This document shows positions 3,725 through 53,280 of a stretch of DNA of 54,856 bases, in pieces. The number at the start of each line of letters is the position of its first letter. Position 1 is the stretch's first letter. Source of the DNA: Deltaproteobacteria bacterium. Its GTDB lineage: Bacteria > Desulfobacterota > Syntrophobacteria > BM002. The notes under the pieces are model-generated. The model made no database searches, had not been told where the DNA came from, and was given only the letters and a program-made list of their open reading frames with translations. The DNA is taken from positions 1 to 54,856 of the forward strand of contig JAJDNB010000181.1 in NCBI GenBank assembly GCA_022340905.1, in the 5' to 3' direction. The position numbers were made by a program, and so were the translations under genes.

Positions 3725-3784
3725 GACTGAGCCTCTCGCCTACCATCTACCCAAAGCGCTTATTTCACCTCTGGCACTAAGTCT

Positions 3785-3966
3785 CAAGGTTTCAGGTGTC
3801 AGGTTTCAGGAAGAATAAACAGACATGCTAAACTTGCACCCTGAATAGTTATACCTGAACACTGAAACCCGAAACCTTAGTCCTTGCTCTATGCCCCATG
3901 CCCCCTCAAATCTGCAATCTACAATCAACAATCTCAAATTAAAATTCTTTGTGACCTTTGTGGTTC
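3785..3966. repeat. Composite dispersed repeat (TTTCAGG and ATGCCC words)
   Basis: The spacer after ybgF (3725-4398) carries a dispersed repeat: direct words of TTTCAGGTGTCAGG type at 3789-3810, a spacer, then the complementary words CCTGAACACTGAAACC near 3854-3875, forming a long imperfect hairpin. It continues with TGCTCTATGCCCCATGCCCC and ends with CTTTGTGACCTTTGTGGTTC. The same words recur at about 19.85, 27.1, 30.0, 38.7 and 53.2 kb. The rest of the spacer (3967-4398) shows no convincing gene. Confidence 0.75.
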
Positions 3967-19732: not shown

Positions 19733-19840
19733 GGTGTGTGCGCCTTTTTCGTGAAATGTATTTGTGCCCTACTATAAATCAACGTAACAAGCAGCGTGCA
19801 GCCCTGTCAACTAGGCACGAGGAACTGAGCACTGGGCACC

Positions 19841-19962
19841 AATTCTCAAGGTGCCAGGTGTCAGGTTTCAGGTGTCAGGGAGGAAAAACAAAAAAGCTAA
19901 AACCTGAACACTGAAACCTCAGTCCTTGCCCTATGCCCCATGCTCTATGCCCCAAGCCTTAT
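19841..19962. repeat. Composite dispersed repeat (TTTCAGG hairpin and ATGCCC words)
   Basis: Fills much of the murA-comEC spacer and touches the murA stop codon. Words CCAGGTGTCAGG and TTTCAGGTGTCAGG (about 19853-19879) face ACCTGAACACTGAAACC (about 19902-19918) across an A-rich loop (AAAAACAAAAAAGC). They are followed by CCTATGCCCCATGCTCTATG. Nearly the same order of parts as at 3.8 kb. Confidence 0.75.
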
Positions 19963-21209
19963 TCCTTGACTCGCTCTATCCTTGCCCCTACTCCTCTCAG
20001 TTTTTCTTCCAGACCCTCGTAGCCTCTATCCAAGTGGTATACTCGGGATACCTCGGTAGTGCCTTCGGCAGCCAAGCCGGCCAGGACCAGAGATGCGCTT
20101 GCCCGCAAATCCGTGGCCATCACTGGAGCACCTTGCAGTGTTGGCCGCCCCCGCACAACGGCGGTGTTACCTTCGATGCTGATGTCGGCGCCCATGCGTT
20201 TCAGCTCGCTTACGTGCATGAAACGGTTTTCAAATATTTTTTCGGTGATTATGCTTTGACCTTCGGCCAGACACATCATGGCCATAATCTGGGCTTGCAT
20301 GTCGGTAGGGAAGCCGGGGTATGGGTTTGTTTTGATGTCTATGCTTCGAATCACTTCTCCCCCAACGGACTTGATCGAACCCTCACTGATTTCGAATTTC
20401 ATCCCCGCTTGTTCCAACTTGTGAATGACCGCCTCCAGATGGTCGGAAATACAGGGTGTAATGGTGATTTCTCCACGGGTAATACCTGCTGCAGTCAAAT
20501 AGGTTGCAGCCTCGATCCGATCAGGCATGACGAAGTGATCCATGGGCTGCAATTTGGACACCCCTTCAATGGTAATTATTGAACTGCCAACACCTGAAAT
20601 ACAAGCGCCCATGTTATTTAAACAGTGGGCCAAGTCGACCACTTCTGGTTCCCGGGCAGCGTTCTCTATGACCGTCTGACCCTCAGCTAGGACCGCGGCC
20701 ATCATCAGGTTGGCAGTGCCAGTGACAGTGGGGATGTCAAAGTAGATGTGATTTCCTGTCAACCTTTTGGCGGAAGCTTCCACGTAGCCGTGCTTTAGGT
20801 CAATACGTACCCCTAACCGTTCCAGGCCGCTCAGGTGAAGGTTGATGGGCCGGGCTCCGATGGCGCAGCCTCCCGGCAGAGACACCCTGGCTCTCTTGAA
20901 GCGTGCCACCAGAGGGCCGAGTACCAGTACCGAGGCCCGCATTGTTTTTACCAGATCGTAAGGGGCTTCATGGCCGTCCACGGTGTCGGTGTGAACACAG
21001 AGGGGATCACCCTCTTCAAAGGTGGCACCAAGGTGGTAGAGGAGCGTTTTGGCAGTACGAATGTCTCTCAAAGGTGGAACATTGTGTAGCCGATGAACAC
21101 CACCGGTAAGCAGGGTAGCGGCTAGAATGGGAAGAGCGGCATTTTTTGCTCCGCTGATCTGCACCGTGCCATTAAGAGGACGACCACCTTCGATGATTAT
21201 TTTATCCAT
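19959..21209 (-). CDS. murA: UDP-N-acetylglucosamine 1-carboxyvinyltransferase MurA
   Basis: 416 residues, the standard MurA length, when started at ATG 21209 ([14 protein letters not shown]), which has GGAGG 11 nt upstream; the frame is open to 21299, but that would add 30 unconserved residues. MurA transfers enolpyruvate from PEP to UDP-GlcNAc, the first committed step of peptidoglycan synthesis, in the cytoplasm. The substrate motif [13 protein letters not shown] is at the N-terminus and the active-site loop [11 protein letters not shown] has Cys115 at the same number as E. coli MurA, so fosfomycin sensitivity is expected. It is the last gene of the prfA-prmC-murA group. Confidence 0.96.
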
Positions 21210-27074: not shown

Positions 27075-27330
27075 CGGGAACTTGGGCACAGGGCATAGGG
27101 CATGGGGCATAGGGCATAGAGCATGGAGCAAGGAACATAGGGAAATCCAGCTGACAGCAGACAGTGGGCAACCGGCAGAGATCAGGGGTCGGAGATCAGA
27201 GTTCAGATGTCAGATGACAGGGTCAATAGGCAGTGAGCACTAGGCATCAGGTTCCAAGGCGTCAGGTTTTCCGCCGCAGGCGGATCAGGGAGAAGAAACA
27301 AAGAGGCTGAAACCTCAGTGCTAGTACTCT
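27075..27330. repeat. Mosaic of dispersed repeat words in the trxA-radA spacer
   Basis: This noncoding stretch between two divergent genes is built of GGGCATAGGGCATGGGGCAT words (27092-27130), AGATCAG/CAGATGTCAG words (27180-27220), then GGCGTCAGGTTTT, a TCCGCC-GCA-GGCGGA mini-hairpin and GCTGAAACCTCAGTGC. These are parts of the TTTCAGG and ATGCCC families seen elsewhere, here in the opposite orientation to the 3.8-kb copy for the ATGCCC words. Confidence 0.65.
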
Positions 27331-29887: not shown

Positions 29888-29951
29888 TACCTCGCACAAC
29901 AAATGACAGCGCAGCGTAGTGACCTAATGACGGCGAAGCCTAGTGACCAAA
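29888..29951. repeat. Half-size GTCATT/AATGAC mini-palindrome array
   Basis: Units of AATGAC/TAGTGAC joined by short GC-rich inserts: ACAAATGACAGCGCAGCG, TAGTGACC, TAATGACGGCGAAGCC, TAGTGACC. It is the reverse complement of the array at 44.72 kb, with two mismatches over about 50 nt. Confidence 0.8.
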
Positions 29952-34919: not shown

Positions 34920-35003
34920 GTTATTGCGGATTTCGGATTTCGGATTGCGAATTTCGAAATTTAAACCCTATGCTCTATGCTCTTTGCCCCATGCTTCTTT
35001 ATC
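34920..35003. repeat. Dispersed words (GGATTTCGGATT and ATGCTC/ATGCCC)
   Basis: The cbiA-cbiC spacer carries TTGCGGATTTCGGATTTCGG, GCGAATTTCGAAATTT, and CCCTATGCTCTATGCTC with TTGCCCCATGC. The TTTCGGATT words return at 37.35 kb. Confidence 0.6.
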
Positions 35004-35683: not shown

Positions 35684-35746
35684 AAGCTGGAGAACTTTCT
35701 AAAAAGTTCACAAACTCAGGGGTCATTATGCTCCCCTTTCACTCTT

Positions 35747-35988
35747 AGTCATTTGGCCACTGAAAGTGGCCGTCATTACGCTACGCTGTCATTATGCCTT
35801 CGGCGTCATTTATGGTCATTAAGTCATTACGCTTCGTTGGCGTTAGGTGGTCATTTATTGTTTAGACATAATGACTAAATCACGGGCGTCAGCCCAAATG
35901 ACAGGCGCAAGTCTTAATGACGGCCGCAAGGCCTAGTGACGGGCGCAGCCCAAGTGACAACGTAGCGCGTATGCGCGAAGTGTAGTGA
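35747..35988. repeat. Large GTCATT-linked mini-palindrome array, copy A
   Basis: About 240 nt built of GTCATT spacers and short GC-rich palindromes on the left (GGCCAC-TGAAA-GTGGCC, GCC-TTC-GGC), a near-palindromic centre around 35850-35876 (GTCATTTATTGTTTAGACAT), and AATGAC/TAGTGAC spacers with further palindromes on the right (GGGC-GTCA-GCCC, GGCC-GCAA-GGCC, GGGC-GCA-GCCC). It fills the cbiC-cbiD spacer, and a copy in reverse orientation fills the cbiL-Gate spacer. Irregular unit length and lack of cas genes exclude CRISPR. Confidence 0.9.
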
Positions 35989-36061
35989 CTAAGATGAAGA
36001 TAGACGCCATGCGCTCTGCGCTTGGCGCTCTGCGATTTTACATGAGTGGGCATGGACTGCA

Positions 36062-37195: not shown

Positions 37196-37372
37196 CCATT
37201 TTACTCAAATCCGAAATTCTAAATCCGAAGCACGAAACAAATTCAAAGCACGAATGTTCCAATGTTCAAAACATTTTGACCTCGAGATCCGTTTTATGTT
37301 TTGCTGATTTGAATTTGGAGAATTGGAAAATTGTTTAGGATTTCGAAATTCGGATTTCGGATTTCCAAACCA
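37196..37372. repeat. Long AT-rich inverted repeat of TTCGAAAT/CAAATTC words
   Basis: CAAATCCGAAATTCTAAATC and AAACAAATTCAAAGCACG on the left are imperfectly complementary to ATTTGAATTTGGAGAATTGG and GGATTTCGAAATTCGGATTT on the right, around a centre near 37280. It fills the cbiD-cbiE spacer. Confidence 0.7.
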
Positions 37373-38631: not shown

Positions 38632-38659
38632 GAGAGACGGGAGCATAGGAATAACCACG

Positions 38660-38746
38660 TGCGAGGTTTCAGGTTTCAGTGTTCAGGTTTCAGCTTTTGT
38701 CTTTTTCTTCCCTGACACCTGAAACCCGACACCTGAAACCCTAGTT
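38660..38746. repeat. TTTCAGG/CCTGAAA dispersed hairpin element
   Basis: GAGGTTTCAGGTTTCAGTGTTCAGGTTTCAG on the left (shown in overlapping words) is imperfectly complementary to CCTGACACCTGAAACCCGAC and ACCTGAAACC on the right, around the loop CTTTTGTCTTTTTCTTC. It is the cleanest copy of this family in the window and fills the cbiET-cbiFG spacer. Confidence 0.8.
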
Positions 38747-38789
38747 ATTGTGCTTCGTGGTTCATATCCATCCTTACGAATAGGTTCGT

Positions 38790-41447: not shown

Positions 41448-41545
41448 CAAAATGAAGCTAAGCTGGATGTGAGATGTGAGATTTGGGATACCAAATCCCG
41501 AGAGAAATGCTAAATCTCACATCACATATCACACATCCCACAGCT
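41448..41545. repeat. Inverted repeat of GATGTGAGAT/ATCTCACATC words
   Basis: GGATGTGAGATGTGAGATTT and GGGATACC on the left are imperfectly complementary to AAATCTCACATCACATATCA and CACATCCC on the right. It is the best copy of this family; relatives are at 21.3 and 44.66 kb. The rest of the spacer 41405-41846 shows TTTGAAATTCGGAATTTTAAA words and a purine-rich stretch near 41650-41690, but no supported gene. Confidence 0.75.
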
Positions 41546-43262: not shown

Positions 43263-43264
43263 AC

Positions 43265-43530
43265 AAGGTCAATAAAGGACGGTACCGAAAGGATTAAAAG
43301 GGAATCCCGTGCGAATCGGGAGCGGTCCCGCCGCTGTAATCCCGACCTCAGTGGAGGTGAGGTGTCGTTCTTCGGTATACCCCGGATGGGAAACAGGTTT
43401 GGAAAGTGCTGCGGAGAGCCCTCCCCGGGGTTAAAGTCACTGTCTCGTGAGTCCCTCTAGATAAATGGGGACCGAGCGGGATGGGAAGGCGAGCCGGAGA
43501 TCGGGAGAGCCAGAAGACCTGCCGTTTTTG
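43265..43530 (+). promoter_or_regulatory. Cobalamin riboswitch (B12 element)
   Basis: Characteristic segments in order: ACCGAAAGGATTAAAAGGGA (43284-43303), GTGCGAATCGGGAGCGGTCC and CGCCGCTGTAATCCCGAC (junction region, 43309-43347), AGTCACTG (about 43435), and the B12 box AGCCAGAAGACCTGCC (43508-43523). Binding of adenosylcobalamin or a related corrinoid folds the RNA and lowers expression downstream. It controls cbiK and presumably btuCDF, i.e. cobalt insertion and corrinoid uptake, but not cbiA-cbiH, which lie upstream. The 3' boundary is approximate. Confidence 0.95.
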
Positions 43531-43585
43531 CTAAATCGGTGATGATGGTAAAATTACCGGTTTGCGGTACGAGGATACCGAAACC

Positions 43586-44659: not shown

Positions 44660-44880
44660 TATAAGATATGAGATGTGTGATGTGGTATGGGGCATGGAGC
44701 ATGGAGGTTTAGCTTGCGCTACACGTCACTAGCCTTCGGCGTCATTAGGTCACTACGCTGCGCTGTCATTTGTTGTTAGAGGTAAGGAGTTAGGAGTAAG
44801 AATTCAGGTTTAAGGTTTTGTGTTTCTTTTCCCTGACACCTTGAAATTTTGTAATGGTGATATGGGATATGAGATGAGAG
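44660..44880. repeat. Mosaic spacer with half-size GTCATT array
   Basis: Parts in order: GATATGAGATGTGTGATGTG (GATGTG family), GGGGCATGGAGCATGG (ATGCCC family), the half-size array 44725-44778 (GTCACTAGCCTTCGGCGTCA, TTAGGTCACTACGCTGCGCT, GTCATTTGTTG; reverse complement of 29.89 kb), then a partial TTTCAGG element (CAGGTTTAAGG, CCCTGACACC). It fills the cbiK-btuC spacer. Confidence 0.8.
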
Positions 44881-48724: not shown

Positions 48725-48901
48725 CGGGTCATTTGCTTCGCGTCACTTGGCTGCGTCGTCATGAGGCCTTACGGCCGTCATTTAGGCTTGCGCCTGTCAT
48801 TTGGGCTGACGCCCGTCATTTAGTCATTATGTCTTAACAATAAATGACCACCTAATGACTGCGGAGCGAAGTGACGGCCACTTTCAGTGGCCAAATGACT
48901 A
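48725..48901. repeat. Large GTCATT-linked mini-palindrome array, copy B (inverse of copy A)
   Basis: About 175 nt. Read on the minus strand it starts AGTCATTTGGCCACTGAAAG and continues as in copy A: a GTGGCC arm, the centre TAGGTGGTCATTTATTGTT, ACATAATGACTAAAT, then GGGCGTCAGCCC, AGGCGCAAGCCT and GGCCGTAAGGCC, each set between AATGAC-type spacers. Copy A has about four more GTCATT spacers on its left side. Within units, differences often keep pairing (AGTCTT in A, AGCCTA in B). It fills the cbiL-Gate spacer. Confidence 0.9.
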
Positions 48902-53079: not shown

Positions 53080-53117
53080 TTCTACAATATGTCAAACTAT
53101 TACATTGATAAAAAATA

Positions 53118-53280
53118 AGGTTTCAGGTTTCGGATTTCAGTGTTTCCCGCTGCCGCTTCGCTTCAGATGGGATTTCTGCTTCGCTCCAACAGGTTTCAGC
53201 ATTGACAATTTCGAAATTTATGTATTCCATGCTCCATGCCCTATGCCCCATGTTAATCTCTCCTGACACCTGAAACCTAA
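53118..53280. repeat. Composite dispersed repeat (TTTCAGG hairpin and ATGCCC words)
   Basis: AAGGTTTCAGGTTTCGGATTTCAG on the left (overlapping words) faces CTCCTGACACCTGAAACCTA on the right, with TTCCATGCTCCATGCCCTAT and GCCCCATG inside. It lies between the terminator and aceK. Confidence 0.75.

Follow-up and report, generated by a model that had tools for sequence, protein, structure and literature searches.

What kind of element is an array of short palindromes, tagged by GTCATT, in a spacer of a Deltaproteobacteria bacterium (GTDB BM002)? The window analyzed here, the whole stretch of 54,856 nt, holds such an array at about 35747-35988, and a first-pass annotation had seen in it, and in an inverse-oriented partner within the same cobalamin region, a hint of selection on RNA or DNA structure, with a simple inverted duplication as the alternative. 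The array itself is real, 13 heads being parsed from it (copy A, Table 1), and its anatomy is as that annotation described, with heads alternating with short palindromes around a short core. A 14th GTCATT, at 35722, probably lies outside copy A, the insert after it being non-palindromic. The inverse partner, copy B, is complementary to copy A over 119 nt at 88% and over 65 nt at 83%. Both copies stand as annotated, while the set to which they belong is larger than had been stated, with two half-arrays in the window and many further places in the genome. The two copies are located between protein genes. The window contains 47 GTCATT hexamers against 27.35 +/- 5.0 in shuffled sequence (0 of 100 shuffles as high), and the folding potential of copy A exceeds that of shuffles (z -4.3). 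The sole Rfam family matched in the window was a cobalamin riboswitch (RF00174, 64.3 bits; 43263-43540, + strand), upstream of transport genes. The position of the copies in the cobalamin region looks incidental and implies no function for the cobalamin genes.

Table 1. GTCATT arrays and their parts in the 54,856-nt window
Feature	Position	Strand	Basis
Copy A, gene-less GTCATT element with 13 inward-facing heads	35748..35989	.	Sequence parse and orthologous-site comparison
Copy A left arm, seven GTCATT heads; hairpin modules TGGCCACTGAAAGTGGCC, ACGCTACGCT, ATGCCTTCGGC; spacers TATG, AA	35748..35855	+	
Copy A core TATTGTTTAGACAT, 14 nt, one mismatch to the TTGTTAA motif	35856..35869	.	
Copy A right arm, six AATGAC/AGTGAC heads; hairpin modules GGGCGTCAGCCC, AGGCGCAAGTCT, GGCCGCAAGGCC, GGGCGCAGCCC and one 25-nt module	35870..35989	-	
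Copy B, gene-less GTCATT element, inverse orientation	48728..48899	.	
One-sided GTCATT half-array, leftward	29902..29947	-	
One-sided GTCATT half-array, rightward, 93% complementary to the leftward half-array	44725..44770	+	

To characterize the architecture, 338 kb of array-rich sequence from the organism's own genome and 299 kb from the congener G007 were parsed, yielding 86 arrays of at least three heads (43 from each genome) compared with 0-1 each in Markov shuffles. All but one of the 86 are intergenic, as against 26% of random points, and few lie between divergent genes (2/72, compared with 41/385 among all neighbours). In mixed arrays the rightward heads precede the leftward heads, the exceptions being two runs with one stray head each. 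Between the heads are spacer inserts of 2 nt (CT, CC, TT), 4 nt (CACA, CATG, TATA) or 5 nt (CACCT), and hairpin inserts of the forms AGCGNAGCGT, GCC-GNA-GGC, GGC-GNA-GCC, GGGC-GNNA-GCCC, GGCC-GNNA-GGCC and GGCCAC...GTGGCC; owing to these inserted hairpins, the GTCATT arms advance mostly in steps of 8, 10, 16 and 19 nt. The suggestion that differences between the copies keep the base pairing was borne out at the level of modules: in the 13-nt inserts 96.4% of cells are paired compared with 81.2% in shuffles, and covariation is 0.365 compared with 0.116 (0/500), with pairing and covariation of the 10-nt inserts shifted in the same direction. Stems are thus exchanged as pairs.

The loops follow a rule of their own. 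When the hairpin inserts are read on the AATGAC strand, GNA or GNNA loops are present in 58 of the 101 distinct ones (5.4 in letter shuffles), and on the opposite strand in just four. A C-G pair closes 80 of 99 inserts, all four bases are represented at the N of the GNA loops, and the third place of the GNNA loops is a purine in 10 of 17. The sequences d(cGNAg) and d(cGNNAg) form exceptionally stable DNA mini-loops, while RNA favours GNRA. Because the loops are GNA and GNNA and not the RNA-type GNRA, this rule, with any base at N and on one strand, would fit folded single-stranded DNA better than a conserved RNA. Nearest-neighbour parameters, which are not known to reward d(GNA) loops fully, gave no strand preference in DNA folding energies, and it is therefore the loop statistics alone that speak for a single-stranded DNA form.

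The first-pass annotation had allowed that the two copies might be the only ones in the genome, which would leave a simple inverted duplication. Many more were found in this 4.1-Mb draft, which is 94% complete: 34 BLAST places of the array, and 171 GTCATT-N(2-26)-GTCATT pairs compared with 12 for the reversed control pattern, these genome-wide counts being drawn from searches and sampled stretches. All 10 genomes of the genus contain the pattern GTCAYTACGCTNCGCTGTCAYT, as does one further genus of its family; the rest of the 60 relatives are without it. Further afield, a genome scan recovered it, among the matches listed, in Bacteroidota (Mucilaginibacter, Spirosoma, Fibrella, Flavobacterium), Ignavibacteriales, Cloacimonadota, KSB1, Nitrospinia, Calditrichaceae and other Desulfobacterota, so that arrays occur in at least six phyla among those matches, and the array-bearing genomes outside the genus have the same spacers and hairpins. 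Two IMG/VR viral contigs (L189, L190) carry GTCATT arrays with AATT spacers between genes. A phage origin was considered and rejected: arrays are found in these two viral contigs, but relatives of S23, the protein introduced below, were found neither in phage records nor in viral contigs.

An all-against-all BLASTP of genes recurring next to arrays returned just ordinary neighbours and spurious ORFs, and the S23 protein was taken up next as a hypothesis. S23 (PF05635/TIGR02436) is the 23S rRNA intervening-sequence protein, a four-helix bundle of about 120 amino acids; it is a sequence relative of the solved protein XCC0516, and an S23 relative forms a ring-shaped homopentamer. Every one of the 10 genus genomes encodes it, as do 17 of the 18 array-bearing genomes from the genome scan (among the 18, one belongs to the same family and one apparently to the same genus), with copy numbers reaching 29; the 14 control genomes had none. 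The organism's own genome has three S23 genes against dozens of arrays, and one of the three (C121:12695-13009) sits exactly in the core of a GTCATT element. In total, 12 loci in Desulfobacterota, Nitrospinia and Bacteroidota have an S23 gene between inward-facing GTCATT arrays, contributed by the own genome, the congeners G007 and G004, Nitrospinia, Mucilaginibacter, other Bacteroidota and one Desulfobacterales genome. In Mucilaginibacter terrigena 17JY9-4, GTCATT arms accompany at least two of 15 S23 matches. The S23p reading frame is thus found in 12 gene-bearing GTCATT elements and not in copies A and B.

Other S23 genes lie between inward-facing arrays of other, mostly 7-nt units (GGGCATA, AGACGAC, GGAGTAR, CGAACAT, AAGGTTA, AAGGTGA, TTGGCTA and others). 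With arms defined by an inverted-flank score of at least 15, 98 of 113 S23 genes are bracketed; the corresponding figure is 6.0% for 1204 control genes and 6% for mismatched S23 flanks. The other 15 S23 genes have no arms at this cut-off. The direct-orientation flank score is near background (median 11, versus 23 inverted). Mean autocorrelation of the arms is 0.55 at period 7, 0.38 at period 8 and about 0.26 elsewhere, and when the arms are read inward G exceeds C in 84 of the 96 that differ. The S23 genes themselves are under purifying selection, with dN/dS mostly 0.06-0.16. Near-identical copies on two plasmids of Calothrix brevissima NIES-22 (L455, L456) have S23 between inverted GGGTGTA arrays, and this independent case may connect the cyanobacterial heptamer repeats to S23; the cassette adjoins a phage-integrase gene. 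An S23 gene on a Pseudanabaena plasmid had no bracketing arms.

Arms and protein are inherited together. When orthologous loci are excluded, the more alike two S23 proteins are, the more similar their arms tend to be (Mantel r=0.35, p=0.001), and pairs sharing arms make up 22% of those above 60% S23 identity and 0-1.4% of those below. In a tree of 113 S23 proteins, built on few columns and with 36 of 110 inner branches starred, including the branch above the GTCATT clade, all 12 GTCATT-armed proteins fall into one 19-row clade (SH-aLRT 100) that spans three phyla; the genus contributes four of the 12, three of them at a single orthologous locus. The seven other members of the clade have other arms or a one-sided GTCATT arm. 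Arm changes on this tree number 4, compared with 11.6 in shuffles (0/500).

Comparison of orthologous sites showed some of them filled and others empty. The site of copy A is short and array-free in the relatives examined. That of copy B holds other modules in G004 and G007, is array-free in G002 and G005, and contains another palindrome in G006. Orthologous elements of G007 and BM002 have kept their outer modules, while whole inner modules differ. The cassette of arms and S23 at one locus of G004 (locus X) is about 95% identical to one that G007, a second species, carries elsewhere, at locus Y. Outside this cassette the G004 sequence matches locus X of G007, the change in identity falling at the arms or next to them, and dS for the S23 gene is 0.10 versus 0.67. 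This cassette exchange is either transposition or arm-to-arm recombination. These comparisons revealed neither a transposition event nor a circle or a target-site duplication, the orthologous flanks being too diverged for exact target sites. What seems to be the same intergenic site in G004 (L328) and G006 (L344) carries an S23 element with GGGTCAT-type arms in the one and GCGCATA arms in the other, which suggests a hot spot or replacement of one element by another.

The gene-bearing elements also provide a link to copies A and B. In those of the genus, the stretch from the arm to the S23 start codon contains a TTGTTAA motif, and the same motif is found subterminally in 11 of 22 gene-less cores, compared with 0.6 in shuffles. 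Ends are thus common to gene-less and S23 elements (heads, hairpins and the TTGTTAA edge), and presence and absence at orthologous sites were seen, as for MITEs. No S23 remnant was found in copies A and B. The two copies nevertheless retain the heads, the hairpins and a version of TTGTTAA. We consider it probable that the arrays belong to a family of selfish elements built around an S23 gene, and that copies A and B are gene-less, MITE-like derivatives of it. The picture of a stand-alone structure or local duplication peculiar to the cobalamin region accordingly gives way to one of end repeats of a dispersed S23-gene element family.

How such elements might move can be sketched, although we hold the biochemical steps themselves only tentatively, at somewhat less than even confidence. 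A complete element consists of an inward-facing GTCATT arm, the S23 gene and an inverse GTCATT arm, its ends marked by the arms and not by a transposase. S23 may bind its cognate arms in their single-stranded form, when these are folded as mini-hairpins, and may pair both ends of the element, after which host replication or recombination, by whatever strand transfer, would bring the unit to other intergenic sites by copying or exchange. Once it had lost the gene, a copy would keep its arms and be acted on in trans, and modules would be gained and lost between its heads.

Other explanations have to be weighed against the S23-element reading. REP/BIME repeats with RAYT (PMC3733652) share with the arrays tagged short palindromes, inverse pairs, intergenic location, rarity between divergent genes and high copy number, and movement in trans by a Y1 (IS200-like/RAYT) transposase would explain these features. 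The own genome does encode a single Y1 protein, which scores 73.7 bits against the RAYT model, below the cut-off of 80. No arrays flank it, however, and arrays lay within 1.5 kb of none of 50 Y1 loci and within 3 kb of 1 of 20 RAYT-type loci; G007 has no Y1 match despite 60 pattern matches, and many Y1-bearing relatives are without arrays. Many of the RAYT genes examined are bracketed by different palindromes of their own, and the method is therefore able to detect such a link; those of four RAYT-type genes from Mucilaginibacter and Flavobacterium (L308, L311, L314, L315) are unrelated to GTCATT. The tag also differs, being GTCATT/GTCACT in all parsed arrays (partly by definition of the parse) and not GTAG or CGTC, and the GTCATT hairpin sequence varies between modules. 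Since no bracketing arrays were found at Y1/RAYT loci, the RAYT/IS200 association was rejected, and we regard such a transposase as a very unlikely driver. The arms could instead be regulatory or RNA-processing sites, for example a stem cut by RNase III or a control of S23 translation, with S23 binding its own transcript and nothing moving. The folding potential of copy A agrees with this, as do the cutting by RNase III of IVS RNAs with S23p at their paired borders (PMC4990558) and the proposal that TAACTGA heptamers are translational sites (PMC4679880). Regulation of this kind is nevertheless unlikely, given that gene-less copies far outnumber S23 genes, that the family is spread over unrelated intergenic sites and phyla, and that sites are empty in relatives and one cassette has changed locus.

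Unselected local growth of repeats as polymerases slip and switch templates at hairpins, with S23 nearby by chance, would account for the whole modules gained or lost between heads at orthologous sites, and slippage of heptamers was proposed earlier, according to a citation in PMC4679880. It does not account for a single gene family being bracketed by inverted arms, for one unit recurring with S23 relatives from different phyla, or for the cassette swap; already disfavoured by the co-inheritance of arm and protein, it is in our judgment highly improbable. Finally, S23 is structurally related to Avd, a protein of diversity-generating retroelements, and 8 of 15 tested genomes have a reverse transcriptase, so that S23 might partner such an enzyme in a retroelement-like spread. 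RVT_1 is present in G007 but absent from 6 of 7 genus genomes tested (the own genome and five congeners, including three single-contig assemblies). A requirement for reverse transcriptase was rejected on this ground, and we give retroelement-like spread scarcely any credence.

The S23-element reading can be set beside systems already described. The annotation knew of no named repeat family with this design, and we likewise found none; Rfam had no match at the arrays. Neisserial intergenic mosaic elements and dRS3 are mosaics built from short inverted units; as generally described they are set apart from the GTCATT arrays by a different unit, and we know of no link between them and S23. Two places on contig C85 of the own genome (L042, L047) have GTCATT half-arrays within longer duplicated mosaics that hold a GTCAT-ACCCGC...GCGGG...AATGAC palindrome, which we take to resemble the neisserial dRS3-type repeats. 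MITEs are likewise short and gene-less, with polymorphic sites and inverted ends common to a gene-bearing relative; here, however, that relative carries S23 and no transposase, and the ends are arrays and not fixed inverted repeats. The nearest described system is the 23S rRNA IVS of Coxiella and Leptospira, selfish elements with an S23p frame and complementary borders that are sporadic and horizontally spread (PMC4990558). They share with the GTCATT elements an S23p gene bordered by complementary sequences but are located within rRNA genes and excised from the rRNA, whereas the GTCATT elements are intergenic, have borders made of arrays of a repeated short unit and abound in gene-less copies. 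We therefore file the element with selfish elements of the S23/IVS kind, although it may form a separate class.

For the heptamer repeats known from Beggiatoaceae, cyanobacteria and Bacteroidetes, possible horizontal spread has been reported, by no evident mechanism (PMC4679880). The TAACTGA repeats of that report and the cyanobacterial STRR are, like the GTCATT arrays, degenerate short-unit tandem repeats in intergenic regions of Bacteroidetes, cyanobacteria and others; the GTCATT arms differ in their step lengths, and the term S23 is absent from PMC4679880. No paper linking S23 genes with such arms was found in the open-access literature. The window has other degenerate short-unit intergenic repeats (GGTTTCA, GGGCATR, GGATTTC, GATGTGA) at 3773-3905, 19835-19968, 27081-27148, 34921-34993, 37207-37368, 38650-38749, 41466-41545, 44664-44705 and 53104-53277. 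Because several of their units match S23 arms in the genus, where GGGCATA, GGATTGC and GATGTGG are arms of other S23 genes, these repeats may be further gene-less remnants of S23 elements.

It is tempting to generalize, and we see the case as evenly balanced, that intergenic S23 genes drive a distinct, unrecognised class of mobile elements without transposase or reverse transcriptase, in which each lineage recognises its own short-unit inverted arms, in at least seven phyla; the cyanobacterial STRR, the TAACTGA repeats and the GTCATT arrays would then be such arms and their gene-less offspring. S23/IVP proteins are annotated as 'four helix bundle protein' in many genomes and have no known function, and the pairing of one lineage with one unit across phyla suggests that there is one. 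If S23 binds and moves its own arms, this would be a class of mobile elements driven by a protein of about 120 residues, and it would also account for the degenerate repeats found between genes in this genome and its genus. The pairing of S23 with its arms offers a testable origin for published, unexplained intergenic repeats of bacteria.
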